Shown: in pieces, positions 1-57,889 of the stretch
Layout of the letters: every line of letters starts with the position of its first letter
How positions within the stretch are numbered: position 1 is the stretch's first letter
NCBI GenBank assembly: GCA_950295325.1
Contig: OX485805.1
Location: 39,793,501-39,857,500 of the forward strand
Source: Polytrichum commune
Taxonomy: Eukaryota; Streptophyta; Polytrichopsida; Polytrichales; Polytrichaceae
Direction of reading: 5' to 3'
DNA length: 64,000 nt
Program-made: the position numbers and the translations under genes
Notes under the pieces: generated by a model
The model's database searches: none
Told to the model about the DNA's origin: nothing
What the model saw: only the letters and a program-made list of their open reading frames with translations

Positions 1-327
1 ATATAACACAAAGCATCATGTTTGGGTCGAACGACCCAAACTAAGTCTTCTAATTATAAACTCATAAAGAAATCCATGATTTTTGCATCAATATAAAATT
101 CACATCAACCCAAAATAATAATCAAGGAATGTATCAAGGAAAAGTATCAAGGAATCCTGCATGTCACAAACAATATAAAATGCAAATCCACCCAATAATC
201 ACAACATTCTTATTATCATTACAAATGATGTTGAAATATATAAATACACAATCCACCTAAACCTATTCATGTCGTAGATGTTTGGGTCGAACGACCGAAA
301 CTAACTTTGCACATTATTTTCTTACAG
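1..327 (+). other. Intron-like sequence upstream of first visible exon
   Basis: AT-rich sequence ending in a pyrimidine-rich stretch and CAG at 325-327, immediately before an ATG. It looks like the 3' part of an intron, so the gene probably begins upstream of the window. It holds two copies of the 22-bp palindrome, at 20-41 (perfect arms, AA centre) and 280-301 (one mismatch). If it is not an intron, it is the 5' flank and ATG 328 is a true start; no TATA box is obvious. Confidence 0.5.
20..41. repeat. 22-bp palindromic element, copy 1
   Basis: Arms GTTTGGGTCG and CGACCCAAAC flank a 2-nt AA centre, a perfect inverted repeat. It is the first of a family spread over this locus and lies in presumed intron sequence. 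A second copy at 280-301 carries one arm mismatch. Confidence 0.9.
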
Positions 328-1653
328 ATGGCTCCAAAGAAAAGACCCGGCGAAAGGTGGTTCATGCCTGCGCCGGACATGTTGTGGCAGGAGCACGAAA
401 CCCCGCAGGATGGCTCCTATTCCCCTAAGGACGGGCTTGTCCTCGCTTGGTCTATTCAAGTAGTCAAAGCCTCAACATACAAAATGATTTTTGTTGTCAA
501 GGTGGGAACCGTGGTGAAACACACCTGGGCAACTCTTACGGGATGGGAGGTCGCATCGGTATAGTCTCTTGGAGACTATACCGACGTCATCCTCGAGAAC
601 TCGGTTGTGCAGAACGCGCATATGTTCATGCACCAGTTCTCCGAGCCTTTCGACGCACTCTATGCAAGAGAGTCCTGTGTCGAACCGGAAGTTATCAAGC
701 CGGAGACAATATTTATCAATGGGAGTACATCGAATACCAAGGTCTCAAGCCGGTTCACAAAACTAAAACATGCAATAACCATGCTGAACAGGGGCCTGCA
801 AAGCAAAACCAAATCACAGCAACCTGTGAGGCGGAAAGCTCCCACAGAGGAAGGAGCAGGGTCGTCAAGACCTCAATCGGTGAGGATGCCGCTACCAGTA
901 CCGGCTGACTTGCGTAGGACCACTCCCTCCCAAACACCTACGAATAGTGAGACCCCTACACCTTCTGGGAGCCGTCAAACAACTCCATCCAAGAGGGCGA
1001 GAGAGTCATCTGTGATGACTGACGAGCCAGTCTCACCGGAGTTGCGCATGCCGAAGCCCGGTGAAGAGGTGGATGCAGGGGAGCTGCAGAAAATCGTGAA
1101 CAATTTCACGACGAAATGCTCCCACTGTTTTTTCATGGGCAGGGATTTCAAGTTCGACGTGAACATCAGCCAGTGCCATCTAGCGCCACCAGAGAAGTGT
1201 GTCCGGGCAAAGGAGGACGCCTACGTTGACTGGATAATCGCGCAGATCGTTTGCGAGCAGTTTAAAGACGACAGGCAAACGATTGTAATGATGCCACAGG
1301 GTCTCAAGAAAATGCCTACACCTGAAATGTGGCCAACAATTCAGAAGGGCGATTTTTGGCTGATAGACGGCCAACACAGCGTGGAGGCATCCAAGAAAAT
1401 CCAACTCATGAATGAGTGGGACGATCCCAACAATCAAAAGGAAAAGCTGAAGGTTTGGAAGGCACTGATGGTGTGGTCTGACGACGAGACCAAGCTCAGC
1501 GACATCTCCCGGTACTTCAATATGGGAGACAAGAAGAGGGCCTACCAAACTTCCTGGATAAGGAATACCATGGCCTCGCGGGAGGTGTGGGAGTTCTATG
1601 GTAGGCCTCCCAAGGAGAAGGAGAATGCGAAGGACAAGAATCCCAAGTGGGAG
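328..1653 (+). CDS. Exon with ParB-like DGQH domain; contains an in-frame TAG
   Basis: This frame is open from ATG 328 to the strong donor GAG|GTGAGT at 1653/1654, except for one TAG at 562-564. Residues about 1-78 are an unrecognised N-terminal part. Residues about 190-240 are a Ser/Thr/Pro/Arg-rich linker. The domain beginning near residue 250 contains FWLIDGQHSVEASKK (DGQHS at 1366-1380). That resembles the nucleotide-binding loop of ParB/Srx-fold and DGQHR proteins, which in bacteria and phages bind CTP or DNA; the fold assignment is inference. The exon is GC-rich, unlike the AT-rich DNA downstream of the locus. The TAG could be avoided by an in-frame 111-nt intron at 502-612 (AAG|GTGGGA to GTGCAG|AAC), but that segment has coding-like composition. 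A decayed copy is the alternative. The exon ends in phase 0. Confidence 0.7.
556..584. repeat. Perfect 13-bp inverted repeat over the in-frame TAG
   Basis: A 13-bp arm (556-568) is followed by a 3-nt TTG loop (569-571) and its exact complement (572-584). The in-frame TAG at 562-564 lies inside the left arm. This hairpin is unrelated to the 22-bp palindrome family. Confidence 0.85.
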
Positions 1654-1662
1654 GTGAGTATT

Positions 1663-1928
1663 GTTTGGGTCGACCGACCCAAACTCCTGGTGCAGTCTTG
1701 TGTTTTTTTTAGTTTGGGTCAATCGACCCAAACAACTGTTGCAGTCTTGTGTTTTTTTAGTTTGGGTCGATCGACCCAAACAACTGTTGCAGTCTTGTGT
1801 TTTTTTAGTTTGGGTCGATCGACCCAAACAACTGTTGCAGTCTTGTGTTTTTTTAGTTTGGGTCGATCGACCCAAACAACTGTTGCAGTCTTGTGTTTTT
1901 TTTTCAGTTTGGGTCAACCGACCCAAAC
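1663..1928. repeat. Tandem array of six palindromes in an intron
   Basis: Inside the intron 1654-2018, six 22-bp palindromes lie at 1663, 1712, 1760, 1808, 1856 and 1907. The spacing is 48-51 bp, each followed by ACTGTTGCAGTCTTGTG and a T run. The three middle copies have perfect arms with an AT centre; those at 1712 and 1907 each carry one arm mismatch. The array expanded as a 48-bp unit, not as isolated insertions. The GCAG in each unit could act as a cryptic splice acceptor. Confidence 0.9.
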
Positions 1929-2018
1929 TCTTGTTGTAGATGTTGGTCATGATATGGTTTGGAAATCACATGTACTTAACTAACACGCATTCAAATGTTC
2001 TGTTTTGTTCACGTGCAG

Positions 2019-3350
2019 GATTTCAAATACCAAATGATCAACAAATTCTCCTCCATTGATAATTCGAGCCACAAGCAGAAGAAATACAGCGACCTCAAGG
2101 GGGAGATTTACTTGATTACAGCATCGGACTCAGTTTGGAGGAAGTGGAAAACCGTGTTTGAAAATCACGAAACGGGGGATTTGATCGACCCCGACACTGG
2201 CATTTTCTTAAGCCAAACCTCGCGCTTCAAGCAGATGAAGCCTCTCGTGAGAGAGTTCTTTAGAACTCTGCAAGGGCTGTCAGAGACGGAGGTGGAGAAG
2301 GCGGCATCGTACATCCTGCACGTGGCACCCACGGCCAAGAGGTGTTGGGTGCACCCGAAGATTGTCTTCGTAAAGCCCAAATCCTTCGTTCCTTCATGCT
2401 ACACCATGAAGGAATGGACGGAGAACAGGAAAAAGAAGACGACTATCGTGCAGGAGCTGCATAAATTGGTGCCAGAGAGGAATATTATCGTGGACGGCGA
2501 GGTTCATGGGGCTAACTGGAGAGCATTCAAAGATGAATATAAGTTTACCAGTGCCTCCATGGCGGCTCTAATAAGGGAAGCGGGGGACGACTTCTTGCGG
2601 GCCAAGATGGTGAAGGGTGGGAAGAACCGGGCGCTTCCGGATCACACAGCGCGTGCGTTCTCGAACTTCATCAAGGAGAAAAAAATTGTCCAGTTTGAAG
2701 GGGACGCTTACTTCAACCTTGTCACCTTTGAGCCTTTGAAAATTCAGGGCTGGCCAGGTCAAGACGCCAGAATGGCGATAAGGACGAAAGCAAGGGACCG
2801 CTTTCCTTTTGGGATGATTGATTTTAGAAATATTCCTGGAAGCTCATTTGAGGGCACGATGAGCACCCTCTTCTACGACCCCTTCTTAACTAAGTTCGTC
2901 GATTATGCAAGCCCTAAGTTCAGGGAGGTAGATATCTGGCTTTGGATAGTCGAGGATAGAAGGGCGGAGCAGGTGTACGAGCTTGTCCGGAAACTGCAGC
3001 CGGAGTATGCAGTGTCCAAGTCTCACTACATCGCCGCACCGGCGGAGGGGGCTTACACGACGTTGAAGGACAAGAAGACCAAGTTCGTCAACGTCTTGTG
3101 TTTGTACTTCGTGTACAAAGCGGAATTGTTGAAGGTGCCAAACCACCCTATATCCCGGATGGACAAACTCTTCCAAGTTCCAGAAGGGTTGGGTGCGAAC
3201 AAGTGCCTCTACGACGAGGCTAAATACGCGAACTATCCTGCAGATGAGCTGCGGATGGAATTTTACATGAGAATGATGAGGACGCTGACGAGGAGAGGGG
3301 ACTGCATCTTCAACGTCTTCGGAGGCTCAAAACATGTCTATGCTGCTATG
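2019..3350 (+). CDS. Exon with methyltransferase-like domain (permuted motif order)
   Basis: An open phase-0 exon between GTGCAG (acceptor ending 2018) and ATG|GTAAGT (3350/3351), 444 codons with no internal stop. Near its end YPADELRMEFYMRMM is followed by RRGDCIFNVFGGSKHVYAA and, across the intron, MSGLNIYSYIEDGD. This order (helix, GD.V.DPF.GSG, then a strand ending in an acidic residue) is that of the C-terminal AdoMet-binding part of N4/N6 DNA methyltransferases. Upstream, STLFYDPFLTKFVD and DIWLWIVED fall where the DPPY region would lie. Key residues differ: DPF is NVF and DPPY is DPFL, so activity is doubtful. A ParB-like domain joined to a methyltransferase-like domain recalls phage and plasmid fusions. 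Relatedness to the exon at 53,687-53,886 supports the call. Confidence 0.6.
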
Positions 3351-3378
3351 GTAAGTGACTTTCTATAGCTCGTAAGCA

Positions 3379-3436
3379 GTTTGGGTCGATCGACCCAAAC
3401 TAGGCTCTTTGCAGGTTTGGGTCGACCGACCCAAAC
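3379..3436. repeat. Two 22-bp palindromes in the 160-bp intron
   Basis: Perfect palindromes at 3379-3400 (AT centre) and 3415-3436 (AC centre) lie 14 bp apart. Together they make up much of intron 3351-3510, which runs from GTAAGT to TGTGTAG. Paired hairpins in so short an intron could affect splice-site folding. Confidence 0.9.
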
Positions 3437-3510
3437 TACACATTTCACTTAGTCTTGTTTATGTGACTGCCTCGACAAATTCTAATTTCCCTATAACTTG
3501 GATTGTGTAG

Positions 3511-4998
3511 ATGTCGGGGCTGAATATATACTCCTACATAGAGGATGGCGATCTGCCATTTTATAGGGTGCAGAAATCGCTGGCGAAGAAGATGGACATC
3601 CTCGATTGGATCCCGGGTAGCTACGTCGACGAGGTTGTTCAGGGTGGCGAAAACCCTCTTGATAGGGTGAGGCGCATCAACCCGGAGGAAATGGCCATGA
3701 GGGCCACGACCCAAGTTCCCGAACCTCTGGTCGGGTTGCATCCGGGCAATCCGTCCCGCACAGAAGGTGGCGAGGTTGAGGAGGAGGAGGAGGAAGAAGA
3801 GGAACACGAGGAGGCGGAGAAGGAAGGCGACGTCGAGGAAGGGGCAACGGGCTTCATGCAACAATCCGAAGCCCCTCAACGGAAGAAGGCGATGCGGGCG
3901 GCAACCCCGCAGAGTAAGCTCGTGCCCGTCCTGACTGTGGACGATGCACGGGACATGTACTCCAGGGACGCCACCGCGACGTTCAGGGAGAGGAGGAAGT
4001 TAAAGGGGAAGAAGCTGTATGGCGACTACTCCGTGGAGGAGACCATTGCCATAAGTAGCGAGGACGACGATGACATTGAGCTCGCCAAACGGCTAAGATC
4101 ATATCCCCCGTCCCCGACAGCGTTCGCTGGCATGGTTAGGGTGAAGCCCGAGGTCCTGACTGTGGAGGAGGCGAACGAGAAGATGAGGAGGGACGAGGAG
4201 CAGCGAGTCCGCCTGCAGAAGGCTGCCGCGGAAGAACCCTCAATGCGGAACGAGGTCGCAGAGCTGAGGGCTCTCCTGTTGGAGCAGGAGCGTCAAAGGG
4301 CGATGGCCCAACCTCCGTCCCACGCCGACTTGATATCACAAGTGATACAAGGAATGTGGGCGCAAGGTTTGGTGGTGGCTCCCTCCAGCTCCTTCCCGCA
4401 CTTGCCCCCCGGCTTCCCTCCGCAGAGCATCCCTCAGCAGCCTGTGCCGCAATCGTCTTTCAGCTTCCAGCACTTGATGCGGCCCCACCAAGTTCCGTAC
4501 GCGCCGGTCCAGCAAGTGGATGACCCCAACATCTGGCGCGTCTCTGGAGCCTCCTCCCCTTTGGACCCTCCACCACTTCGGCCCCCCATAGTCATGGCGC
4601 CACCCCACCAATCGGACGACCCCAGGATGTTTGGGTCGACCGACCCAAACCCACCATCCACTGTAGTGTCCGAAGGGCCCTCTCCAGATGCAGGACAGTT
4701 TGGGTCGGGCGACCCAAACCCCGTTGCAGCGCAGTCCTCCCTTGACCAACATGGGTGTCAACTAGACACGGCCATGCTAGATGTTGAAGGCCTGCAAGGG
4801 CCTGGTGATACCTCTACTCCTAACCAAATCGATGAACCCATGCATGATGCACATGCGGAGATTGGTTTAGGACAATAGCCTGATGCCGATCGTTTGCAGG
4901 AGAAGGTTCCTGACGTCGTCGGAGAAGGCGGTGGCGAGAGAGGCGGGGCAGCGGGGACGGTGGAGGCTTCCACATCGTCGAGACATGACCAGGGCGAG
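3511..4998 (+). CDS. Exon: end of methyltransferase-like domain plus acidic, coiled-coil and proline-rich linker
   Basis: It starts with ATG straight after TGTGTAG and continues the methyltransferase-like motif (GLNIYSYIED). An acidic Glu run is at about 3769-3840 and a charged coiled-coil stretch at about 4168-4310. A Pro/Gln/Ser-rich region follows from about 4380. Two palindromes (4629-4650, 4698-4719) are read through in the same frame as FGSTDPN and FGSGDPN. A TAG at 4876-4878 interrupts the frame, but coding-like sequence continues without further stops to the donor GAG|GTAATA at 4998/4999, again phase 0. CAG to TAG is the simplest explanation. Alternatively 4878 is the true end of one product and the remainder is untranslated. 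The exon looks like a flexible linker, not a catalytic domain. Confidence 0.65.
4629..4719. repeat. Two palindromes embedded in coding sequence
   Basis: Copies at 4629-4650 (AC centre) and 4698-4719 (GG centre) have perfect arms and sit in the open frame as FGSTDPN and FGSGDPN. No reading frame of the palindrome, on either strand, contains a stop codon, so it can be carried in coding sequence. This is similar in style to the palindromic elements found inside Rickettsia genes, an analogy only. Confidence 0.9.
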
Positions 4999-5489
4999 GT
5001 AATACACTGAGCCCTCCCAGTTTGGGTCGACCGACCCAAACTTCCTGGGTCACTGTCTTGTTGGCGTGGTCGTGTCCCCCTTGCTAGGAGGAAATGCACA
5101 CCCCCTGCCCCCCCTGGTCTACACTTGCTCCCCCTCCCCCCAACGTGCCCCCCCGCGATCCCCTTCGTCTCACCTGCATTCGACTACGCTCGACCTTGGC
5201 GGCGCGCAACCAATTTTGTAGATGTAGAATTAGGATAGTGTGAATGCCCTCGTTCACCGCGCCCCCTCCCCCCCCCAAATCAAATTGTACATAGAGATTT
5301 GTAAAAATAAAATTATTATTTTTGGCACCCATATGTTTGCATCCGTGTCCCAATGTATGTTGTTCCCTTGTATGTTTTTGTTGCCACCAATGGTCCAATT
5401 CTTCTTGTGTTTGCACAAAATTTCCGTTCTGCTTGAGATGGACATAGCATAACATAGTCCTCGCCGCCTTTTCTCGCTCGTCGCCGCAG
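4999..5489 (+). other. Phase-0 intron with palindrome and C-rich tracts
   Basis: GTAATAC at 4999 to GTCGCCGCAG ending 5489, 491 nt. It contains a perfect 22-bp palindrome at 5020-5041 and C-rich tracts at about 5099-5150 and 5260-5278. Codon frames on both sides are phase 0 and open. Confidence 0.6.
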
Positions 5490-6302
5490 GGTTCGGAGCA
5501 TAGCGTCGCAGCTCCCCACCGATCCTCTCCGAGGAGTGTGGAGGACAGCGCGGTGGTCCCCCCGATTTTGCCCTCGCCACCTTCGCCTCCCAAGACCCGG
5601 TTCCTGGTGCTAGACCTCAACGGGGTCCTTGTCCAGTGCGTGCATTGTCCGAGGGTCCCAACGGTGCCTTTCTGCAAGCCCGAGGACGCCAACTACGATG
5701 GACCCCCCGCGTACATCAAAAGCAAGCTAGTGTACCTCCGCCCGTGGCTTCGGCACTTCCTACAGGTCGCCCTATCCAAATGGTGGGTGATCATTTGGAG
5801 CTCCATGAAGTCCGAGAATACCCAGGCCGTCGTGGAGTTCATCTTCAAGGGACTCCAACCCCCATGCTTGGTCCTAGGACAGGATTCTTGTAAAACATTG
5901 TACACCCCCGAGGGCAGGGTTGTGAAGAAGCCCAACAACCCCGCCGTAAACCAATTTCTTAAGGTCTTGAAGCCAGTCGTATGGGACCAGCGTCCGACCA
6001 TGGTCGGCTGTCCCTACGACGTTCGCCCCACCCGTGACAACACGTTGATGGTGGACGACAGCGCTTCCAAAAACATTTTGAACCCGACCTCCAACTTCAT
6101 CGTTTGCCCCACGTGGACGGTCGAGAAGGTCCGAGACCGCTTTTTGTTAGACCTACTTAAGTACATTCAAACGCTCGTGGGGAGCGGACTACCCGTGCCC
6201 CGGTTCCTTAGTTGTAATCCGATAGGCGAAAGATACATGGATCCGAAGGACTATATGTACAGAGAGTTGTACGCTCACGCGAAATATAATAAACTCATTT
6301 GA
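5490..6302 (+). CDS. FCP1/NLI-interacting-factor-like HAD domain
   Basis: Open from acceptor 5489 to TGA at 6300-6302. After a short Ser/Pro-rich lead, RFLVLDLNGVLV (DLNGV at 5613-5627) matches HAD motif I. VIIWSSM (about 5785-5805) matches motif II and KKPNNP (about 5922) motif III. LMVDDSASK (VDDS at 6051-6062) matches motif IV. FCP1-type enzymes dephosphorylate Ser/Thr, often on the RNA polymerase II tail, using DxDx(T/V). Here the second Asp is Asn (DLNGV), as in a plant DLNG subfamily known to me, so catalysis may be weak or lost. RPWLRHFL and FIFKGL are typical of the FCP1 homology region. No donor is evident before the TGA. A weak GTGTGT donor at 6324 would need the TGA to be bypassed to join the next exon. 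It may be the last exon of the long gene or a separate gene. Confidence 0.8.
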   Translation, partial: GSEHSVAAPHRSSPRSVEDSAVVPPILPSPPSPPKTRFLVLDLNGVLVQCVHCPRVPTVPFCKPEDANYDGPPAYIKSKLVYLRPWLRHFLQVALSKWWVIIWSSMKSENTQAVVEFIFKGLQPPCLVLGQDSCKTLYTPEGRVVKKPNNPAVNQFLKVLKPVVWDQRPTMVGCPYDVRPTRDNTLMVDDSASKNILNPTSNFIVCPTWTVEKVRDRFLLDLLKYIQTLVGSGLPVPRFLSCNPIGERYMDPKDYMYRELYAHAKYNKLI

Positions 6303-6421
6303 GATACTACATGGTGTGCCATTGTGTGTGATATAGTATGCCTCAATTGTATATCAATTTTCTCATGCTCCCCCCCTGCCCCCCTCCCCTTGGGTTTTGT
6401 TTGTTTTAATTTTGCCATCAG

Positions 6422-6775
6422 CGTTTGGAGCCCTCGATTGAGATCGTCAGCAAATCAAACTTGGGGAGCTTCTTCTACGAGACCGTCTACGATGCCGCGT
6501 CCACCATCGACTACTCCAAGGAGCCTATTGACGCCGGCGTCGTCGATAGCCCCCCACCCAAGCAAATCTTCCGGCATTCTCCGTCCCCGTCGCCGCTCAA
6601 GGGCATAGATCGCAAATGCGTCCGGATGTCCCCCTCTCGGCCCGGCGGCAGTATTACACCTCAACGGCGGCTGCGGATGGACGCTCGGCCTACGAAGAGT
6701 GGCACCCTTCCTATTCCTTTGCGGGACGCATTGCCCCTCCTCGCCGACTCCGACGGGAACGCCCCCGGTGACAAG
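6422..6775 (+). CDS. Proline/serine-rich exon of unknown function
   Basis: Acceptor TTGCCATCAG ends at 6421, after a C-rich and T-rich tract. An open phase-0 frame of 118 codons ends at donor AAG|GTGAAC (6775/6776). It begins LEPSIEIVSKSNLGSFF and becomes Ser/Pro/Arg-rich. No domain is recognised. How it joins the HAD exon is unclear because of the TGA at 6300. The following intron (6776-6911) starts with a long C run and holds a degenerate palindrome at 6857-6878. Confidence 0.5.
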
Positions 6776-6911
6776 GTGAACCCCCCCCCCCCCCCCCAAA
6801 ACATGGTTAACCGCGCATTACAATCATCCGGCACTTAAAAAATGAACGTGTGACACGTTTGGGTCTTCCTCCCTAAACTAACACGTGTGTTCTTGCATTC
6901 ACGCGTTGCAG

Positions 6912-7244
6912 GTTGCTCCCACCCGTAGACCTATTCGGGCTAGTGCGTCCGTCGAGTTGGAGCGTTTCTACTCCATGACCAGAAATGCAAGACAGTCCAC
7001 TTCATCGTATTCGAATTCTTCGTCGTATAATTCGGGCGGCCGACGGAATCCAAAATGTGTTATTGATGGCGGTCACCCCAAGAATGGCTATAGTCGCGGG
7101 GCGGAGATTTTCAGGAATGTTGAAGCAATGCGAGCAAAAGAAGCCGCAGCAAAAGAAAAAGAGGCAAAAGAAAAAGAGGCAAAAGAAAAAAAAGCAAAAG
7201 AAAATGAAGCAAAAGAAAAAGAGGTAGTCTCCGAGGCTAGATAG
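6912..7244 (+). CDS. Last exon: basic, Lys/Glu repeat tail
   Basis: Acceptor GTTGCAG ends at 6911; the phase-0 frame runs to TAG at 7242-7244. An Arg/Ser-rich part precedes a tandem hexamer-like repeat coding for AKEKE units (about 7143-7220), probably a charged helix. No domain is recognised. Composition falls toward AT after the stop, consistent with a 3' untranslated region. Confidence 0.5.
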   Translation, partial: VAPTRRPIRASASVELERFYSMTRNARQSTSSYSNSSSYNSGGRRNPKCVIDGGHPKNGYSRGAEIFRNVEAMRAKEAAAKEKEAKEKEAKEKKAKENEAKEKEVVSEAR

Positions 7245-7390
7245 GCCATAGTAGGCGTAGGGTTTTGGGCCATAGGCAAGAACATTTTGGGTCGCACTAT
7301 CCAATGGATGTGTTGTGTTAGCATGCTATGCATTTTACATGCCACACTTTGTATGTTTTTTTTTTGCAATAATATAAGTGTCACATGATT

Positions 7391-7622
7391 TCCCCTTCCA
7401 TATGGTCTAAGGTTTGGATTGCCCTACCTAAACCATCACAAATATGAGTTTGGAATATTTTGTATGTTATATTATATTGGTTCACATATTTCCCCTTCAA
7501 TATGATCTATGGTTTGGATTGCCCTACCTAAACCATATTCATACAAGTTTTTGTGCGATAATATGAATGTTTTAAGATTTCCCCTTCAACTTGGCCTAAG
7601 GTTTGGATTGCCCACCCTAAAC
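7391..7622. repeat. Three imperfect tandem repeats with a diverged palindrome
   Basis: Units beginning TCCCCTTC at 7391, 7491 and 7580 each carry a 22-bp motif, GTTTGGATTG followed by CCCTACCTAAAC or a variant, at 7412, 7512 and 7601. The motif keeps the length and outer arms of the upstream palindrome but has changed inside, as expected after C-to-T decay at CpG. Lying 160-390 bp from the proposed terminus at 7783, they resemble the subterminal repeats of CACTA elements. Confidence 0.7.
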
Positions 7623-7783
7623 AATCCCAAATATTGAGTTATTAACGGGGTTCTTGTTCTAAACACCCGCTTCAAAGTGTTCGCATCTTACAACTTTCTC
7701 CAATATGTGTTCCATTTATCCTTGTTCTTATTTCTGTGAATGTCTCAAAATGCCCAAAAAGTCTCAATTTAACGAATATAGTG
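7595..7783 (-). mobile_element. Terminal segment of a CACTA-like element
   Basis: Read on the minus strand, 7783 begins CACTATATTCGTTAA. From there about 180 bp match 53,270-53,451 along their length, while sequence beyond 7783 and before 53,270 does not match. A shared abrupt boundary at a CACTA end marks a transposon terminus. The element would extend leftward over the coding locus, with its other terminus outside the window. Adjacent TTA may be one copy of the 3-bp target duplication, but the partner cannot be seen. Confidence 0.6.
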
Positions 7784-8099
7784 TTATGAGTATTTGAGGA
7801 TGTTTTGTTCTTAATACCATTTCGGTCCATATACCATGCAAAAACCTTCAAACTTGGGTAGGACTATCTTTAGTATTAATAAGATATTAGGATGATATTG
7901 TTACCAAATTGGAGCTTGGGTATAGAAGAATTCTCTTAACTTGTGATACTCACCGAGCATCAATATTTGACTAGTCACTCTAGACAAAATGACTACGGTC
8001 ATATCAGACAACTTTCGTTCCCCATGGCGTGCTCCCATGGGATTTTGGGACCTTGTTTTGGGTTGCCCCTCGACTCTTCATCATTTCTCATAATCGTAT

Positions 8100-28650: not shown

Positions 28651-29792
28651 GTTGGTCTAGAAGAACCATGAATTGAATTAGAAGGTTCATGAAATTGAAA
28701 GAATATTTTGGTAACATTGGTTGGAAAATTCATGAACTAGCTTGAAACTTTCATAAATTTGGATTTGCACTTCTGTGAAGTCATCTTACCAAAATGAGTA
28801 ACATATATAATTGGTATATGAAAATAAATTCGTGAACTTCCAGTCAAAAATTTTGGTTTTTAAATTACATAGATTCATTGTATTTGATGATTTACATTGG
28901 TTTAAGTTTATTATTCTTTAAATAAGATGAGCACATGTAGATTTATGATGTGCGAAAGATGAGAGTAAAATACTTAATATATGATACTTCAAGAGCTTAT
29001 CGTTATGATTTAAAATAATCTGAAGGCGTTTGTTGGTCTAGAAGAACCATGAATTGAATTAGAAGGTTCATGAAATTGAAAGAATATTTTGGTAACATTG
29101 GTTGGAAAATTCATGAACTAGCTTGAAACTTTCATAAATTTGGATTTGCACTTCTGTGAAGTCATCTTACCAAAATGAGTAACATATATAATTGGTATAT
29201 GAAAATAAATTCGTGAACTTCCAGTCAAAAATTTTGGTTTTTAAATTACATAGATTCATTGTATTTGATGATTTACATTGGTTTAAGTTTATTATTCTTT
29301 AAATAAGATGAGCACATGTAGATTTATGATGTGCGAAAGATGAGAGTAAAATACTTAATATATGATACTTCAAGAGCTTATCGTTATGATTTAAAATAAT
29401 CTGAAGGCGTTTGTTGGTCTAGAAGAACCATGAATTGAATTAGAAGGTTCATGAAATTGAAAGAATATTTTGGTAACATTGGTTGGAAAATTCATGAACT
29501 AGCTTGAAACTTTCATAAATTTGGATTTGCACTTCTATGAAGTCATCTTACCAAAATGAGTAACATATATAATTGGTATATGAAAATAAATTTGTGAACT
29601 TCCAGTCAAAATATTTGGTTTTTAAATTACACAGATTCATTGTATTTGATGATTTACATAGGTTTAAGTTGATTATTATTTAAGTAAGATGAGCACATGT
29701 AGATTTATGATGTGCGAAAGATGAGAGTAAAATACTTAATATATGATACTTCAAGAGCTTATCGTTATGATTTAAAAAATCTGAAGGCGTTT
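28651..29792 (+). repeat. Three tandem 381-bp repeats
   Basis: Units begin GTTGGTCTAGAAGAACC at 28651, 29032 and 29413 and end CTGAAGGCGTTT. Copies 1 and 2 are nearly identical; copy 3 has scattered substitutions and small deletions (for example CATAGG for CATTGG, AAAAAATC for AAAATAATC). They are AT-rich without open frames, so either a recent local amplification or the edge of a satellite. Confidence 0.95.
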
Positions 29793-30814
29793 GGTATTGT
29801 ACATACATAATGATGATCTAGATCTGCAAAGTAGGCAGAAAACCCACCCTGCACCAAGAGGATTCTTGAGCAAGGTAGGGCCAACAACCTCAAATTCATG
29901 TTGGATTGCCCAACATTTTTTTTTTCTATTGATCAAAAACTATGTATGATATTTCAAAACGATCTAACGTAATTTGCGTTTCTTAAAACACGTGATTTGT
30001 TTAGTACATGTAAACCAAATAAACACAATAAGGTTCGACCTGTGATTTACTTACACAAATGTCTTCTATGAAATCTCACCTACAACTTTCATTTTGTGAG
30101 AAGTGGAATTTGGACATAGGGACCGTTTTCTAAAAACCAATTTGTGGTTTTGGTCTCAATCAACCAGTGAAAAAGAGTCTATTGGCAACACATGGATTTT
30201 CAAGGCGTTTAGGATATAGTATTTGGAACAAATAGCCCTCGTGAATTCCCAATCTAGTCACGAATGGTTTTGTGTGTCATCCATTGTCACACCAAACCCT
30301 GAACCACAATGACTTCATTGGCACTCCCAATAATAATAATAATAATAATAATCCATAAAATTAAATTGGACGGAAACAATCATTGAAATCTTAGGGGTTA
30401 AGCACGGGGAAAATCGATCCATGTGGAAATCATCCAAGGGCCATTATGGAGACTAAACTCTTTATCTCTAGAAGTTGAATATGAGTAGAGGTACACAATT
30501 CTCCCATATTTATGTGACCAAACCATGTGTAAGGTGTTGTTTTCAAAGCTTGGATAGTAATTTGATAGATTGATATAATGTTATAGGCTTCATTATGCAA
30601 AGGGCTTTGGAAGAAAGAAAAAGAAAAAGAAAAGAAAAAGAGTCCTTCAATTTGAAATGCACATGAGGACTTCAACCTTGTCAAAATTGGTTGCATTCAA
30701 TAATTTATATTGATAAGATGTCAATTATATGTCCTTTGTTGTTTGTCGAACAAGAAGAGCCTTGACTTGTATTGTTCAGACAATCACCTCTACACAATCA
30801 TACCATCGTACATG
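29793..30814. other. AT-rich DNA with repeat pieces
   Basis: 29823-29885 is an inverted match to 36747-36805 (CTTGCTCAAGAATCC and the complement of GCAAAGTAGGCAG). (AAT)n lies at about 30325-30351. No gene. Confidence 0.45.
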
Positions 30815-43961: not shown

Positions 43962-46890
43962 AACTTTGTCTTAACTGCTTTCAAATGTCACTTTACGAGT
44001 GTTGACAAAATATGGTTAAACATTTTTCCTTATTGTGGTTAAGTATATTCAACTGCTCGTTGGCTAATTGTTTTACTCTTATCTTCAAGTTCCTACTTAT
44101 CTTTCTAGCATTTCAATGTTCACTTCACATCTCCAATTTCATATCATTGCTATGTCTCAAAGATTCCTCAATTCATTCTCTCTCAAAGTCGTTTAGAGAA
44201 CCCTAACAAATTGTTGTAGACAATCGTTATCAATTACACTCACAATGCTTTGTCTTAATCCAATATGTGATTATTCATTGTTTGTGCACTCAAACAAACT
44301 AACAATAATGATTGTCCAAAACTTACATTACACTCCGATCACATTCAACTATGGTCACGTTCTTCTTTCTATCAAAAAGTGACACATACATGCTCCACAC
44401 AATACTCTGGTAATAGTTTTAAGTCAAGGAATCACTCCTTTTGAGAAGAAAAATGATCTTCAAAATTAAAAAAATTAAAAACCTCTTAGGTAGCTACTTT
44501 GTTGAGGGAGGCAAGTCTATGTATGACAAGGCTTGTAGTCTAGAACTGAACCAAATTTAGAAGTGTTACTACAATCGGATTACATTGTACTTCGGATATG
44601 GACAACCTTCTAGGTGAAATAATGAAGACAAGTGAGAAGGTCCATGTCATTGAAGTTAGTGTTTTGCTATCACTTAAACTAAACCAAGAAAAAACAACCT
44701 ATGGTACAAGGTCTCAAGATGACCAAGCTAGTGTCTTTGAGTTTTAATGTCACATTGGGTTAAGGTTTCTAATAACAAACTTTGATTTTTACTCCTTCAT
44801 TTCTTCTTCGTTGAGCTTAATTCACACTCTTATGGTTCATTGGTGCTTTCTTTATTGTGTGTGGTTTTATCCTATATGTGCAGACTCTTATCACTCTAAT
44901 TCCATCATCTATGTCAATCGTGAAGCTTGAAAGCTTGGCAAATGATCTATGACTCATAGTCTAGACAATGTTTGGGGCAATGTCTTTTGAATAATTCCAA
45001 AGTATTTAATTGCCATGAATTATGCTTGTGATAATCTCAAAGTTAAATCCCTTAATCAACTTGCAATCATCATGGAAATCTTCACAACTATAATCACCAC
45101 CTTCATCTTCAGTGGACCTTGCAACTTGTCTCAAAAATCACCCACATGGGTTAACATAATAACAATGCCTCATCAAGGTAGGTTATATCCTTTGTTCATA
45201 TGATTCAACCTAATTTTAGTTAATCAAACAATCTCCATTGGTCAAAAAATTACTTTAGTGAGGTAGAATCGTTCTTTTCTCAAGGTAGTGTTTTTGGCAA
45301 CCTATAGCATGCTCAAAGTAAATTTATGCCTTGTTAGATCTGTATGTAGACTCATTGCTTGCTCAGACAAGGTGCAATAGCCCTACTAGGCTATATCCTA
45401 GTAACATTCTTACCCTTTGATAATATCTTTCACTCGCATGACTAACTCTCATCTCTCAACCTAGGTTCTGGCTATGGCCTATTGCCTTTACTAATATCAA
45501 ATGCGTCCATCTCAGGCTCTTAGTTTCCATGCTTCCATTCAAGCTATTGGCCTTCCATCTACACTTAGAATTGGTTCATCTCTAAATCACTCCACAAATT
45601 GATTGTACACTCCCTTCTGTCATATATTATCTTCTTCTCTCAAGCCATTAGCTTTTACTTCATTCCTCTCTCAAACTTGTATCATTGCTCAAATTTGTTG
45701 TCAAGAACCTTATCTAGATTTAAAGGTCTCAGAGAACTTCTTCTCCTCTTCTCATACTTCCTAATTCCTTGCGGTTTACCCCACACACCTTAACTCTCAA
45801 AAGCTATCGCCTCAATATTACACATGCAAGTTTAACTAAGGCTTTCATAGCCTTACGTCTTTCTTTCTCATGTTGACAAACATCTTCCTCTCATACTCTT
45901 AAACTCTTAACACCTCTCATGGTTAATCTAATAGTTTGTTAAACTTGACATAGTTGTTATGAGCTTCCGCTCAACTCTCCTCCTCCTTAGCTTATCATCA
46001 AAGTTTATTCCTCCATACTCAACTACATTCCTCATGAACTTTGATTAGATTACTCATACTCTTAATGACTCCCTCACTCACAATCATGTTTAAAGCCAAT
46101 GATGTTACACAAGACCTTTCATTTACATTGTAAGACAAACCACAACCATTGAACTTCCACTTCAAAGGCATCCAAGTAATTGCTCATCAAAATCACTTAT
46201 TTACTCTCGATGTCAGAGTATCCAAAAAAATACCAAAACATTCAGCTCTCGTCATACTAACTTCCTATCCTCAAGCATCTCATGTGGGATTTGCCTATTG
46301 CTACTTGCCCGAACTCAATCACTAAGCTTTGGTGTCCACATAAAAGTCTATTGCTATACAATGTTGAGACTATGCATGATTCTACTTATGAAAATAGCAT
46401 GATTCTTCCTTGGCCTACCTTCTCCTTATTGAGTCAAGAGGAAGGAGAAGGTGGTTACATGCAATAACCAGCTTATCACAATAATAGCCTTCTAATCCTA
46501 TTATGGATGAGATTCTAACTACCAAATGCATGATGAAAGCCACCAAAATTTGAGAATTGCTCGCTTTGTCCTGGCTATGGCCAAAAAAAGTGGCTTACAA
46601 TCATCATTAAGAAAGAAAACCTTCATTTTGACCTTACATAATTTTTGCATCACAACATCAATTTTGAAATATGAAATGACCATGTATGGGATATGTAGTT
46701 GCTAAGCATGCGAAATGAATCCTTATTTGATTCAACAACCAAATTTTTATGAGGTTGGAATTGCCCACAACAAGGTTGCATACCTTGTTATGCATGCCAT
46801 GTAGTTAACCGGGAATTATCAATGGTTGCAAAGTGATCAAACAATCCTTGTAATTGAGAAGCAAACCAAGCTTCAACCATAAGATATGCA
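43962..46890. other. C-over-G-skewed repeat-like DNA
   Basis: On the + strand C greatly exceeds G, most clearly at 45,400-46,480. No gene is recognised. Such strand bias often remains from a decayed retroelement, but no retroelement motif was found. Confidence 0.35.
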
Positions 46891-46899
46891 AATATTACT

Positions 46900-47250
46900 C
46901 AAATACTTTTCATAATCGGACACCTATATTTGATTGATGCGTGGTTTAGTGAGAATCAAAGAACAAACACCATAAAGACACATATATGAAAGAGATTGGA
47001 CTATGTTTTCAAATTTTAATAATTGTTCTGCACTCAATAGTGAACACAAGTGGAAAGACTAAACTATTTAGTTGAAAAATGAAGAAACATGCACTTCCAA
47101 TAATGATAACCAAATTTGAGGAGGTCATATTTCAGCCAATTTTTGTTGAAGCTCGTCATAGATTTCCCAATGCAATACAAATTTCATTGTGTAAATCCAA
47201 TTGGTAAAAGTTTAAACATGAAAAACGCACCGAATAACATCCACATACCA
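46900..47250. repeat. Dispersed repeat family H, copy 1
   Basis: Contains CACCTATATTTGATTGATGC, AAGAGATTGGACTATG, AGTGAACACAAGTGGAA and ATGCACTTCCAATAATGATAACCAAATTTGAGGAGGTC. Matching blocks occur in order at 57890-58265 and 58335-58710. Shorter pieces of the head lie near 32455, 36435 and 54365. Confidence 0.6.
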
Positions 47251-48454
47251 AAGTGGTATTGAGAACTTGGGCAAGAACATTGGGTAAGTTGTGTGGGATA
47301 CAACAATGGTCTTAGTAATTCTAATGAGTAGTTTATCAAGGGATCCGAGATTCGGTTTCAAGTAAGGAGCACCATAAATTGAATATTTGGTACCATGCGG
47401 ATATTTGTATCAAGTACATTAAGTTTTTGTTGTCATGTGGCGGGGCAATTCAAGAATGATGCAATCGTTACTCAACTTCTTTAGTAGATTTATGGCATTG
47501 AGTTTTTTATTTTAAAGATGGGACCACTTTGAGTCCAAGATATGTATAAGGTTCATGTTGTGAGAGGACATGGAATTGTTTCAACTTGTAAATAATACTA
47601 AAGGATTGTAGAAGAGCTTTGAAGATTAGAGGTGGAAGTTTGGACTTGTTGGGAAATTTGGTGATTGCACATTTGGCGATGCATAAGTCCACGTGGGCCC
47701 AAGTGGCAAACAAAGTTAGCATATTGAGTTGGGGTTGGATGTGAGTGATATTATTAGCAAGAATAGCTAGGTCATCAACATAAGATGTAGTGAATGAGCA
47801 TGTGGCATGGGAAGTGTATTGTAGATTGAATGTAACATGTTCCGTTCAAATGAACCTCAATCTATGATCAATGGTGAAGTGCCTTTCATTCACGTTGGTA
47901 GCATGGAGTTCATGACTTTATTCTAAATTGAAACAGGTTGCTGCATTCATGAATATATTTTGATCATTTTGCACTCATTGCTCATTAATGTGTAGACTTA
48001 ATTAATTTTGAGAAATCACTAGCTCGTGTTCCAGACTTCAAGCAACGAACAAGTCACACTAGATGATAGATGACTTTATACAACTAGTCTTTTTGCACGA
48101 GGGCTATTGCCACATGTTGGTGGTGGATTCCAAGACATGAACCCACTTGACACTTTAGGTGAATCATATTTGACTATGAAAATATCGGATCTAGACAAAT
48201 TTGTTTGGTGTCTTTGCATTCGTGCTAAGTTGGTTCAAAAAATCATCTTCTTATATATCAGATTGTATCATGTGTTGAGTCTTATAGATGGTGGACTTTT
48301 ACCCACTTGGGACCTTCAAGTGACTTGGCTTGCTATTTTTTTTAAACCAAATTTGGCATTAGCTACAAATTGGGGTAATGGGATGTCACAAATACACCAT
48401 AAATATAAGTTAGTGTGGGCCACATCATTTAACAACAATCCACAAGAATGAACA
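47251..48454. other. AT-rich intergenic DNA
   Basis: No gene supported. The 114-codon frame at 48107-48451 shows no recognisable domain. Confidence 0.45.
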
Positions 48455-48963
48455 TAAGGACTACTTCACACACGAGACTGAGAGCCCGTGACCATTACAT
48501 TTCAAGCATTCTCATTGGTGGAAAAGGCGGAGCTGGTCCAAGTTCGCTTCACACTATGCTTGAGGGACCAACGGAGTATGTGAATGCAAGATGAATGTAA
48601 AGTTTACATGGATTCCTACATGGCATTGAATGGATCATGTTTTTTGGTCACTTGGACTACTTTCAAAAACCACCTCTTGGAGGGATGCCTAACACAAAAC
48701 TGGGAGACCATGGCACTCCGAATGCTCACAACCTTTTATTTATTCTATTTTTATCATGTGTGAGGACCCACATGAATAGAAACTCATTGAAATAGCATTT
48801 GCTTGAGGGCCCGGTCACATAGGACGTCACCACACTACACTTGAGGGTCCGTGACCACACCACACGGTTTCGGAGGTGTGTTGGGACAACCTTTGGACAC
48901 TTTCTTTTGGGCTCTCACAATTTCGTGGTCACGGCTTTTGGCTCATGTGTGAAGTGGCCCTAA
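48455..48963. mobile_element. TAGGGCC-type TIR element, copy a
   Basis: Left TAAGGACTACTTCACACACGAG, right complement TTAGGGCCACTTCACACATGAG. About 509 bp, close match along its length to 50940-51445 and, inverted, to 57362-57869. Subterminal segments repeat CCGTGACC. The interior has no gene. hAT-like by terminus. Confidence 0.7.
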
Positions 48964-49742
48964 GATTAGTTGGGTCACATTTGCATTTTTTAGTAACACC
49001 TTTCCTTGCCGATGATTATTCTTGCAAGTCACATGATTTACAATGAGTGTAGATTAATAGGAGTTCCCATATCAAAGTAAGCTGCATAGCCGATATGGCA
49101 TGTGACACTATGAGAAAAGGGGGAGAGGGAGTATTAGGGAAAGCCATGAAGGGAGGGCTTTACAAAAGTTGAGGCCCTGATTGAGAACCTCACTTAAAGA
49201 GCAAACCTCATTGTTCATTGAAATGCACCGTGTATAGATGGTTTTTATTTCTTTTCATCTTCATAAAGCCCATGAAATGATACATGTTTTAAAAACAAGG
49301 CCATGTTTTTAAGCAAAAACTCAAAACTCAAAAATAAAAAATCTACATGTTGTAAGAAGAGAATGTTTTGAGTTTGAGTTTTAATGCAGCCCACATTAAC
49401 CATGTAGCACATTATTTGTAATGTCACTCTAAATCATATATGTTGGAGTCAGTTTTGAAAGTTTAAATCTCTTATAGGTAAACAAATTCAATAAAGCACA
49501 AGATGTCAAATTTCTCAATATGTGAAACTAAATTTGTGTTTGAGACATCTAGGGGTCCAAATTTCACAAGACAATAATTTTAAAGAATTTGAATATTGAT
49601 GTGACACACAATAACCATGTAAAACACATAACTGTCAAGGCCACATTAAAACATATAAATTGTAGTCAGCAATATATTTGTGACTCTCTTGTAGATGAAC
49701 AAACCCAATGTAGTTCAAGATATCTAAGTTCTTAATACACAC

Positions 49743-50070
49743 AACTGAACTGTGTGGCGGGACCCCAGTGTCCCGCACAAACTCCATCTGGAAACGTAAT
49801 TATTTAATTTTGAGCTAGCTTAATTCGCGCCTGCACGATTTGGTCGGATATCATGCATCTGATGATTGGAAGAGCAAGTCCATCAACAACCTCACGTTGC
49901 GCATTCGATTTGTCACTCTTTGTTTCAAATATTGTCCATGTATCTCTCGGTGAGAGCAGTTGTTTGCCGCCTTCATCGACTAAATCGGACTTATATTGAC
50001 GTTGTTACAACCTTTGTGCAAGAGACGGGCTCATATGGAACCCCGGGGTCCTGCCACACGGTTCAACTGT
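49743..50070. mobile_element. Unclassified TIR element
   Basis: CAACTGAACTGTGTGGCGGG followed by ACCCC, and the complement of the right end CAGTTGAACCGTGTGGCAGG followed by ACCCC, form inverted repeats of about 27 bp around roughly 300 bp. It is more GC-rich than its flanks. No target duplication is clear. Confidence 0.6.
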
Positions 50071-50939
50071 TGCTTATTTGAAGGCATTTGAAGATCAAAT
50101 TCTCACAATCATATGAATCATTTACAATTCATTAAGTAAAGTCACATCTAATCAAATGTCATTTAAAAAAAAAGGAAAATTGTTGAGGCGGCGATCACGC
50201 TTGGCATAAACCAAACTTGTTGCCCGGGTTTACCTCAAAAGTTTTCATGGGGAGTCCAAGTTTCTACATCACATGCTCTTGAATCTAAGGTACCTCATGT
50301 AGTTAGGCTCAAATCTAGGGCACACAAAGAAGACGGCATATTATTGGGTAGGCCCGACTACTATCGGTGCACCTACTACACAATGAGAGTGCCCTAACAT
50401 CTAGTCAAAGTCCGAGTCCCCATGAATATTAGTAATTTTAGGGTGCTCGAACAATTTCATGATTGTGTAGCACATAGATATTTGGGCAATTGCCAATGGG
50501 ATGACTACCAAGGGGCATCACGGTGACTTACCATGCCTTGTAGTTATGACCTTCCCAACATAATAACCCCCATAGTGAGCTTTTGGGAATATCAAGCAAG
50601 ACATCGGGATTCCTCCATGGGAAGCTTTCCCTTTTCTTTTGAGTAAAATAAAACCCTATTTGCACTTTTTCATAGCTAGCCATCCTCACTGGCGAATTGT
50701 GTGAATGATGTTGAAGTGACATCAACCGACACAAAAAGCAAGGTTTGTGTGTAAAGTTCAAGGGGGCCAAGTGTCAATTAAAAAAACAATTTCTTCCTTG
50801 ATTTTCACTTTGTTGTTTGCTCTTGTTTGTTGCCGGCATCTTGGTGTATGTTGCACTAGGGATTTGACACAACCACAAACCAAATTTAGGATACCGTGGT
50901 GGGCCATGTTAACTTATTGTGTGAGACATTCACACTACT

Positions 50940-51445
50940 TAGGATCACTTCACACACGAGACTGAGAGCCCGTGACCAATACACTTCAAGCACTCTCGTT
51001 GGTGGAAAAGGCGGAGCCGGTCTAAGTTCGCTTCACACTACTCTCGAGGGACCAATGGAGTATGTGAATGCAAGATGGATGTAAAGTCTACATGGATTCC
51101 TACATGGCATCCAATGGATCATGTTTCGTGGTCACTTGGAATGTTTTCAAAAACCACCTCTTGGAGGTAGGCCTAACACAAAACTGAGAGATCATGACAC
51201 TCTGAACGCTCACAACCGTTGATTTGTTCTATTTTTATCATGTGTGAAGACCAACATGAACAAATATTCAATGAAATAGCATTTGATTGAGAGCATGGTC
51301 AGATATGACTTCGCACTACGCTTGAGGGTCCGTGACCACATGACATGATTTTGAAGGTGTCTTGGGAAGGGTTTTGGACACGTTCTTTTGGGCTCTCAAA
51401 ATTTCATGGTCACGGCTCTTGGCTCATGTGTGAGATGGCCCTTAG
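50940..51445. mobile_element. TAGGGCC-type TIR element, copy b
   Basis: Left TAGGATCACTTCACACACGAG, right complement CTAAGGGCCATCTCACACATG. Same internal order as copy a (GTGGAAAAGGCGGAGC, ATGGATTCCTACATGGCAT, AACCACCTCTTGGAGG). It differs by point changes, so a and b are related but not recent duplicates. Confidence 0.7.
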
Positions 51446-53269
51446 TACAAATGTAGAAATGTGTGCAAGTATTGTCATTCACTTTGTATCCGATACCAAT
51501 TCCTACATATTTAATACAAACCCTTTGAGATTCATCATTAATATCATTTATTCAAAAAGAACTTGTTGTGCCTTTCTATTGATTTATAGTAGTTTTTATC
51601 TCATAAAATTGTTTATTGTCCTAGTATGGGTGAAGGTCTATTCAATACACTGGTAACTTGATGCTAAGTTCATAAACACATTCCAAATTTAATAATCGAA
51701 TATAAATTGCAATACTTTTATATGACTTAGATTCCACATTTGAAAGGGGTAGTAACATGCAGATGAAGAGACTCTTTATTCATGTTCCCTTTAACAAGAC
51801 CCAACGTTTGTATTTATCTAATTATCTTTGTAACGTCAATATTGCAACATGGAGGAAAGCTTGTTAACATACACTTCATTCACATATTTACCTAAATGAA
51901 AATCTAATCATCTTCATATCTTCAAATTAATATATCAAGCTTGTCAACAATACATGGGATCAATGTCAAAAAGGGAGGGAAACCATCTCATGAGTGATGA
52001 GTAGTGAGCAATGAGCGGTGAGCATAATCACATGAGCAGTGGGCCCTAACATATGAGGAATGAATCCAGATTTAATAAGTGTATAAAGGTAGAAAGTTAA
52101 TAATCTAAATTTGGCACTACATTTATTACATATTTTTTATTGTAAACTGGAAACATTCTAAATGAAGCAAGATGAAGGAGGCCCATTACCATGGATCATT
52201 TACAATACTTTCAGCCCATTGCTAGTTTTTATTATAACAATTCAAACCAACACATGTCATTTATTGACATTCTTATACATGTGGCTTAACACAACACTTG
52301 CAACACTACTTTTACTCTACAACACCAACAAGTTCAAGTAGTCACATGAACTCGTTGTAGGTATATGTAGGTGTGTGCATGAACTTGACACTCTTGTAAT
52401 CCACCTTGCAAAAAAATCTCAACACATAATAAAGATGTTTGTACCACTTGTGAAATTTATTTAAAGTCATCTAAAAATCAAGGAACGGACTATTGTTTGC
52501 CACCTACCTAATTTGCAATAGACAATAGTTTTGGAAACTTATAGGTGGATGTCCTTTAGTCAGTCCTAGTAAGGACAATGGCCAGACGGACATGTTAAAT
52601 TTCAAAATAAATCAATTAACCCAATAACCCACATGGTTTTCACTGCAATATAAATATTTCATGATCCATTGGATTATCACTTTTTTTTTAAGTATGGTTC
52701 ATATCGGGGCACCCTCAACCCTAATTATATGATGTTACTGGCACTCAAAATATAATTGATGAGGCAAGATCCCCTGCATTAAAATTCATGGTATAATGAA
52801 TTGTAACTACTGGACTATGGTTGGTTGTAAGGGAGAGACTATGCATTTGTATGTATTTCACCGAGTGACCTTTGTAATCCACCTTTCAATTTCACATTAT
52901 CTCATAAGAAGTCCCCAGAATCTATTATAGGTTTTGGTATTAATTATAGTGCGTTCATTGGATTAAATCATTATTGCAAAACTTATGCTATTATTTGTGG
53001 GTTTTCTTTTTCTTTTTCTTTTTCTTTGTAGTCAAAGAGATTTTGCATATTGTTGTTTTTCCATGAGAAGAATGCCAATGTGAAAATAACGTTCAACAAA
53101 AACATTAAATTTGAAAAGCAAGGGGTATGTGTTGGCAAGCATGACATGTATTTCAACTACACTACTAAGAAAATCAACTAATGAATGCCTCAATTCCTTG
53201 GCGGGGCACTCATGAGAAACATCCAATTCTCATTCACTTGTTTATTGAGGCATTATAAAAACCCAGACT
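51446..53269. other. AT-rich intergenic DNA
   Basis: No gene supported. A short GTGAGC-type repeat lies at about 51990-52025. Nothing else stands out. Confidence 0.5.
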
Positions 53270-53522
53270 CACTATATTCGTTAATTTGGGGCTTTTTCGA
53301 AATTTTGAGACAGTTACAAATATAAGAACATGGATAAAATCACACAGATATTGGAGAATGTTGTAAGATGCAAATACTTTGAAGCGGGTGTTCATATCAA
53401 GAACCCAATTAAGAACTCATATCAAGATAGTTTAGGTAGGACGACCCAAACATTAGACCATGTTGTTGTGGTCCATATATTAATTTGAGACAAGAGAAAG
53501 TCTCAAATTAACGAATATAGTG
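53270..53522. mobile_element. 253-bp CACTA-like deletion derivative
   Basis: Starts CACTATATTCGTTAATTTG and ends with its complement (CAAATTAACGAATATAGTG). The left 182 bp are the reverse complement of 7600-7783, including a 22-bp motif relative at 53430-53451 (GTTTAGGTAG then GACGACCCAAAC). An inner hairpin TAATTTGAGA / TCTCAAATTA lies at 53481-53510. No matching target duplication (ACT left, ATA right). It shows both termini of the family that ends at 7783. Confidence 0.75.
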
Positions 53523-53686
53523 ATAGAGCAATAGTCGTTGATGTCACAACTTCTACGCGTTGGTTCCCATTGTTAATCTCTACATTCATGTACCAACACT
53601 GACACATTATTATTTCAATAATCCTACCTTTTTGTATTTTTCATTAAACATCTAATTTATATGATTTTGTATTTTCCTTCAATTAG

Positions 53687-53886
53687 GTGCCTATGTCCAT
53701 GAATGTTGTAAGAGTGGACGCCATTTGGTTGCTTATGAGGCAAACGACCTCAATAAGATACTTGACTTGCTTCAGGAGTTGTCATCTCGTAACCTTGTAG
53801 TCGGTCAATTATCACAACCAATGTCATTGGAGGATGATGAAGAACCTCCTCATGAAGTCGTTAGGAAATCATGTTTGAGTACATGA
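53687..53886 (+). pseudogene. Second methyltransferase-like exon
   Basis: After a T-rich intron-like tract ending CAATTAG (53686), a frame reads AYVHECCKSGRHLVAYEAND, then LNKILDLLQELSSRN, to TGA 53884-53886. VHECCKSGRHLVAY aligns without gaps to VYAAMMSGLNIYSY spanning the junction at 3350/3511, and GRHLVAYEA fits the strand after motif I of DNA methyltransferases. The intron phase appears different here. It is AT-richer than the main locus and isolated, so an older, decayed relative. The neighbouring CACTA-like derivative strengthens the link. Confidence 0.5.
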
Positions 53887-53954
53887 GTTTTGCCCAACCT
53901 TGTCTACTTTATTGTATTCTATTTTGTAGATTTTGAGATGAACTAACTCTCATT

Positions 53955-57869: not shown

Positions 57870-57889
57870 GGCATGCAAATGTTATTCAA

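Follow-up and report, generated by a model that had tools for sequence, protein, structure and literature searches.

Analysis of a 64,000-nucleotide stretch of the Polytrichum commune genome (contig OX485805.1, here named C3; C3:39793501-39857500, referred to as the window) revealed that it opens with the right part of a DNA transposon of 16,787 bp. The whole transposon spans window positions -9001 to 7785 (position 0 counted), i.e., C3:39784499-39801285, with its left part in the adjoining upstream stretch L005. It is one of hundreds of closely similar copies, in a genome of 407.8 Mb and 64 contigs, of a two-gene element of about 16 to 17 kb with inverted ends and 4-bp target duplications. 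The two-gene layout is conserved, with the left gene on the minus strand and the right gene on the plus strand, and the copies carry element-associated palindromes. Taken together, these features are best explained by a transposon that encodes a transposase of the Pfam family DUF7869 and an accessory regulator binding the palindrome, an explanation that we consider likely.

Termini and target duplications of the element

A first-pass annotation of the window had placed a transposon end at position 7783 on the basis of homology to position 53,270. This boundary is the genuine right end of a DNA transposon: the inverted alignment of 7587-7783 with 53270-53465 shows 80.3% identity over 198 bp and stops abruptly at the terminus. 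The exact terminal 15-mer CACTATATTCGTTAA, searched on either strand, is present in the window at 53270 (plus strand), 7769-7783 (minus strand), and 53508-53522 (minus strand) only. A search of 20 kb of upstream DNA located the opposite terminus, CACTATATTCGTTAAATTGAGACTT, in the predicted direct orientation at window position -8999, corresponding to L005:1001, 9 kb upstream of the window and about 17 kb from 7783; over 25 bp it matches the end at 7783 perfectly in inverted form. The element ends read AACACTATATTCG...CGAATATAGTGTT, and ATGA stands on both sides, before the left end and after the TT of the right end. The TTA that had been expected to precede the left end was not borne out, as the TT is part of the element and the duplication is ATGA.

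Homology continuing past 7783 was looked for in genomic copies using 260 bp around this position; a first look gave 1,333 candidates, 40 of which were scored. At all 39 places other than the window, the inner 180 bp of the right end matched at 96 to 100%, and the match stopped 2 to 26 bp past the CACTA core. When the flanks on both sides were compared for 17 copies, the AA and TT bordering the CACTA core proved invariant (17/17) and lay inside the duplication, and a perfect 4-bp target duplication was present outside AA/TT in 16 copies. The single exception, the copy with left flank L031, was kept in the count of 16/17, and mispaired flanks used as a control gave identical 4-mers in 3 of 272 cases.

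Exact 34-bp ends were found 322 times (right) and 330 times (left) genome-wide, with 0 matches for the reversed controls. Among 71 left ends listed on contigs 1 and 2, 54 face a right end at a distance of no more than 50 kb, and 34 of these facing pairs are spaced by 14 to 20 kb. The other 17 listed left ends have no facing right end within 50 kb, with a wrongly oriented end near five. Eight whole elements are 16.0 to 17.2 kb long.

The homologous copy at 53,270 had been missed as a complete element with both ends (53270-53522). Judged by its sequence, it is a complete 253-bp deletion derivative, i.e., a miniature inverted-repeat transposable element (MITE), which aligns with the right end of the large element over 198 bp (80%) and with its left end over 63 bp (94%). 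An exact 19-mer of the MITE type occurs 524 times genome-wide (control, 0), and a 4-bp duplication was detected in only four of nine MITEs after trimming of 2 bp on each side. The large element itself contains a second, nested MITE of this family (L005 7958-8201, window -2042 to -1799; 92.6% identity).

Classification of the transposon

The first-pass annotation had assigned the element to the CACTA class, and this assignment had to be revised. The three diverged tandem repeats that it described just inside the right end were recovered at 7413, 7513, and 7602, sharing the core TTTGGATTGCCC(T/A)(A/C)CCTAAAC in diverged form. Together with the CACTA...TAGTG core and the large size, such subterminal repeats are features shared with CACTA/EnSpm elements, and red algae are reported in passages of PMC12477816 to have giant EnSpm elements that carry accessory genes. 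Nevertheless, we do not regard the element as a CACTA transposon, because its duplications are 4 bp long (16/17 copies, compared with 3 bp for CACTA elements in passages of PMC10741241), its ends do not start with CACTA but carry AA/TT outermost, and it encodes a DUF7869-type protein and no TNP2-type match in the scanned stretches. A CACTA/EnSpm transposon with unusual cargo is therefore most improbable.

Passages of PMC10741241 describe Sola elements as making 4-bp duplications, occurring in moss, and sometimes being larger than 15 kb; 4-bp duplications are also described for Sola2 (PMC3627910). The 4-bp target duplication of Sola elements is found here as well, and by its architecture and this duplication, not yet by its sequence, the element may be termed a Sola-like giant transposon.

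The probable transposase

A Pfam scan of nine coding stretches of the element returned DUF7869 and NIF as the sole matches over the curated cut-off. TNP2/Transposase_21, for which a search had been proposed, gave no match in these nine stretches. The DUF7869 match (E = 2.4e-40) lies in a minus-strand frame in the left half of the element (L005 1530-3044), and at least 85 copies of the protein scored in the genome (of 1,865 candidates). Blocks including QxDNCAKDNK and GHTHxD are conserved when the protein is aligned with a relative of 52% identity. The DUF7869 protein is read as the probable transposase of the element on three grounds, namely position, copy number, and linkage to the transposon ends. 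No paper in the literature searched names DUF7869, and with this reading a Pfam family of unknown function gains a likely role in transposition.

A second DUF7869 family, F692, with a 692-amino-acid frame and about 50% identity, is present at C2:4161001-4179000 (L074, L075).

A cargo gene with four exons

The plus-strand gene has four exons (Table 1), and when these were spliced in silico, the frame was open over 1,652 amino acids in copy A2 and 1,651 amino acids in copy B1 and contained one stop in copy C1 (two of three copies open). GT/AG splice signals of the exons are present in all eight whole elements, with minor changes further out; this includes the donor of exon 1 (8/8) and the signals of the downstream exons 5 and 6 (8/8). 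We infer that the four exons encode a single protein of about 1,650 amino acids with a ParB-like, a methyltransferase-like, and a NIF/C-terminal domain (CTD)-phosphatase region. Exons 5 and 6 yielded neither a Pfam match nor a family match.

For exon 4, the predicted NIF/CTD-phosphatase identity is solid (Pfam NIF, E = 5.5e-14, 52.6 bits versus a cut-off of 21.8), and TIGR02251 agrees (E = 1.8e-8), under its family cut-off. In the nucleophile motif DLN, Asn takes the place of the second catalytic Asp found in DxD.

The ParB-like region of exon 1 gave a weak PHROG match (E = 0.12) and a weak hhalign match to five ParB-methylases, encoded by a bacterial-type contig, by phages, and by a plasmid (probability 1.6%, p = 0.032, with 2 of 200 column shuffles scoring equally well). 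Exon 2 was compared with the same five proteins plus three phage methylases and likewise matched weakly, in the NVFGGSK region only (probability 4.3%, p = 0.0096, none of 200 shuffles as good). The ParB box and the FxGxG motif are the regions covered by the two alignments, and they follow one another as expected. FYDPF was assigned to the DPPY motif by eye only; it precedes the glycine motif by 147 residues, compared with 154 to 164 residues in the four of five reference ParB-methylases that show both motifs. Exon 2 gave nothing meaningful when scanned against NCBIfam and PHROGs, and in tblastn searches of cargo regions against phages one query gave four weak vibriophage matches (E about 1) and the other none. 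Since the ParB and methylase labels rest on weak evidence, the ParB-like and methyltransferase-like identities are treated as probable. Furthermore, as the methylase motifs are degenerate yet conserved, it is quite possible that the methylase is inactive.

A separate chromosomal family of N4/N6 methyltransferases (PF01555) with 577-amino-acid frames occurs at three places (C1:9661226-9662956, corresponding to L060 5226-6956, as well as L061 and L062). These loci were considered as a bridge to the cargo protein and rejected, as the three loci showed no convincing tblastn similarity to it; one of them, queried against phages, gave no match.

Table 1. Features of the transposon and its derivative in the window
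Feature	Position	Strand	Remark
Right part of the transposon (16,787 bp in total)	1-7785	+	Both termini and 4-bp duplication ATGA
Exon 1, start MAPKKRP..., probable ParB-like region in second half (GDFWLIDGQHSVEASKKI)	328-1653	+
Palindrome array in intron 1, 48-bp unit, 5.5 copies	1663-1928
Exon 2, probably methyltransferase-like, degenerate FYDPF and NVFGGSK motifs in permuted order	2019-3350	+
Exon 3, end of probable methyltransferase-like domain, then acidic/proline-rich linker	3511-4998	+
Two perfect palindromes in coding exon 3 (4630, 4699)	4630-4718
Exon 4, predicted NIF/CTD-phosphatase (HAD) domain, nucleophile motif DLNGVLV	5490-6302	+
Exons 5 (6422-6775) and 6 (6912-7244), separate small gene or alternative 3' end	6422-7244	+
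Three subterminal palindrome variants (TTTGGATTG..CTACCTAAA type)	7413-7621
Right terminus, TTAACGAATATAGTG plus TT	7769-7785	-	Followed by target duplication ATGA at 7786-7789
253-bp MITE, one palindrome variant (2 mismatches) at 53431	53270-53522		Both ends present

Linkage of the cargo to the element and selection

Copies of the cargo exons are numerous in the genome (ParB, at least 112; HAD, at least 137). A ParB or HAD exon lies in divergent orientation, on the expected side, and within 30 kb of at least 64 of the 85 transposase copies; on the opposite side, such an exon was found for 2 of 85 among the matches listed. Hence the ParB-like, methyltransferase-like, and HAD exons belong to the element, as the first-pass annotation had proposed. 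Its domain labels fared unevenly, being solid for HAD and weakly supported for ParB and methyltransferase.

Ratios of nonsynonymous to synonymous substitution (dN/dS; NG86, calculated between subfamilies unless stated) were 0.05 to 0.11 for exon 1, 0.09 to 0.28 for exon 2, 0.14 to 0.26 for exon 3, and 0.10 to 0.15 for exon 4. The DUF7869 exon showed values of 0.17 to 0.25 and the transposase N-terminal exon 0.32 to 0.44; those for exons 5 and 6 are mixed (0.08 to 1.79, with few changes). Comparisons with frameshifts were excluded, namely A1-B2 for exon 2 (1.31; 20 stop-bearing codons) and exon 3 (0.84; 17 stop-bearing codons) and B1-C1 for the transposase N-terminal exon (0.72; 21 stop-bearing codons). 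The codon comparisons indicate that cargo exons 1 to 4 are under purifying selection between subfamilies. For the window copy versus A2 alone, few changes are available and dN/dS ranges from 0.30 to 1.76. The diverged family F502 has the same architecture, the same four-exon gene, and a 4-bp duplication (ATGT), with cargo protein identities of 83% for exons 1 and 2, 57 to 73% for exon 3, and 73% for exon 4.

NIF phosphatases are common eukaryotic genes. A passive, Pack-type capture of the ParB and HAD genes from the host, without any role for the element, would fit this and also the capture of genes by transposons described in passages of PMC10741241. Such an origin without function is very unlikely in view of the copy numbers given above with their mostly fixed divergent order, the dN/dS of 0.05 to 0.28 across exons 1 to 4, and the retention of the same four-exon gene in F502.

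For A2 versus C1, synonymous divergence is 0.74 (ParB exon), 0.06 (transposase exon), and 0.15 (phosphatase exon). Because these values differ strongly between modules, an exchange of modules between subfamilies is suggested.

The window copy carries in-frame TAG codons in exon 1 (562-564) and exon 3 (4876-4878, absent from A2), and its N-terminal exon of the transposase also contains a stop. In its GHTHDDI(D/N) block, N occupies one position at which the five other aligned proteins show D. This copy is decaying and probably mobile only with help from other copies.

An element-specific palindrome and its possible role

The element harbors an element-specific palindrome, TTTGGGTCGNNCGACCCAAA, with 25 perfect copies in the window element. 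Allowing for up to five mismatches, 41 sites were found in the element versus four in the other 67 kb, one of which lies in the MITE. Perfect palindromes number 9,731 genome-wide (reversed control, 0), with 21 to 36 in each of the eight elements and 29 in F502, and among 100 genomic sites listed, 81 fall inside three elements known from ends or exon matches (coordinates read by eye). The 25 perfect sites of the window element are distributed over the transposase-side array (15), introns (7, with intron palindromes spread over introns 1 to 3), exon 3 (2), and the leader of the ParB gene (1), and none lies in the terminal regions. The array adjoining the transposase gene comprises sixteen sites in 944 bp, arranged in 120-bp units. 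Across 313 sites (up to four mismatches), the two central bases vary and the arms are kept, with arm conservation resulting in part from the picking of sites; this pattern fits a dimer-binding site.

From these patterns we infer that the palindrome is bound by the cargo protein. In the mechanism that we propose, the DUF7869 transposase would cut at the AACACTA...TAGTGTT ends and would also mobilise the 253-bp MITEs. The second protein would act as an accessory factor that binds the palindrome of its own element in the array by the transposase gene, in the introns, and, in degenerate forms, near the right end, and thereby may control chromatin or transcription of the element. This control could be exerted by modification or protection of the element DNA. 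Alternatively, if the degenerate methylase is dead, the protein could serve as a DNA-bound platform recruiting a phosphatase of the RNA polymerase II (Pol II) CTD type to the element. A more specific version is a parS-like system, in which a non-methylating ParB-like protein on thousands of palindromes, arrayed throughout the element copies, would recruit the CTD-type phosphatase and sustain expression against host silencing; we think that this version is unlikely. If true, it would represent a new type of transposon self-regulation built from prokaryotic partition and modification parts.

The palindromes might instead be TNPA-like binding sites of the transposase, unrelated to the ParB-like protein. 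Degenerate palindromes are present near the right end (three) and in the MITE (one), and a MITE is expected to retain only what transposition needs, whereas none of the 25 perfect sites in the window element is terminal. We regard this alternative as conceivable but somewhat doubtful.

Several observations weigh against a DUF7869 transposase acting with a palindrome-binding regulator. The transposase could bind the palindrome in place of the cargo protein. A comparison of the DUF7869 profile with PDB yielded no transposase and no meaningful match to a solved structure. Moreover, the F692 relative shows neither ParB cargo nor palindromes (up to two mismatches) in the 18 kb covered. With regard to the cargo protein, Pfam finds neither a ParB nor a methyltransferase domain in the exons, PDB sequence searches with the methyltransferase region and the ParB exon profile returned nothing meaningful, and AlphaFold2 models of exons 1 and 2 from four-row alignments gave no usable fold (predicted local distance difference test scores of 31.5 and 32.1). 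The hhalign probabilities given above are low for both domains, and the top column shuffle for ParB outscores the real alignment. Key cargo motifs are degenerate, with DPFL for DPPY, GGSK for GxG, and GQHS for GxHR. Finally, the comparison of the window copy with A2 alone gave, on few changes, dN/dS values of 0.95 for exon 1, 1.68 for the transposase N-terminal exon, and 1.76 for exon 5.

Comparison with known systems

In terms of architecture, though not yet of sequence, the element in the literature that comes closest would be the Sola1-type giant of Ectocarpus, Sola1-1_Ec32 (21.5 kb, compared with 16.8 kb here). As described in passages of PMC12477816, it encodes, on the strand opposite to the transposase, one accessory protein with ParB and N4C/N6A methyltransferase domains, a combination resembling the ParB-like and N4/N6 methyltransferase-like regions predicted here. 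It differs from our element, which has a NIF phosphatase exon with a predicted in-frame fusion (1,652 amino acids versus 1,104 amino acids there), palindrome arrays, and a probable transposase assigned through DUF7869. The same passages cite green and red algal transposons that carry ParB-methyltransferase proteins, i.e., the same domain pair, and put forward the idea that proteins of this kind may bind the transposon encoding them and modify it. A target site for these proteins is not named in the passages, and the family described here supplies a specific candidate backed by strong genome-wide statistics. With this candidate site, hundreds of copies, and a CTD-type phosphatase as a third enzyme module, the bind-and-modify proposal is directly testable.

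ParB-methylase fusions of bacteria and phages (L063, L065; Bce_0392 in passages of PMC5512222) show the same order, ParB followed by a permuted methylase. Compared with these, the cargo protein has degenerate motifs, introns, and an appended phosphatase, and the similarity is weak and at the profile level only. The cytosine methyltransferases of algal retrotransposons described in passages of PMC5890265 are likewise DNA-modification enzymes borne by transposons, but these are C5-cytosine enzymes of retrotransposons, and the passages mention neither ParB nor a phosphatase.

ParB-methyltransferase cargo of transposons is thus already published, and what may be added here are the phosphatase module and the candidate palindrome site. 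A phosphatase fusion was not seen in the literature searched, in which the phosphatase was barely targeted and most subscription papers were outside the scope.

Further observations

Bacterial-type genes for ParB and ParB-methylases were found on the small contigs C10, C12, and C23 (L063, L064), which probably stem from bacteria that contaminated the sequenced material or were associated with it. In the window, a 381-bp unit is present in three tandem copies with 98% identity at 28651-29793, and a cluster of dispersed repeats of 250 to 510 bp, 66 to 88% identical and in both orientations, extends over 46877-58703.

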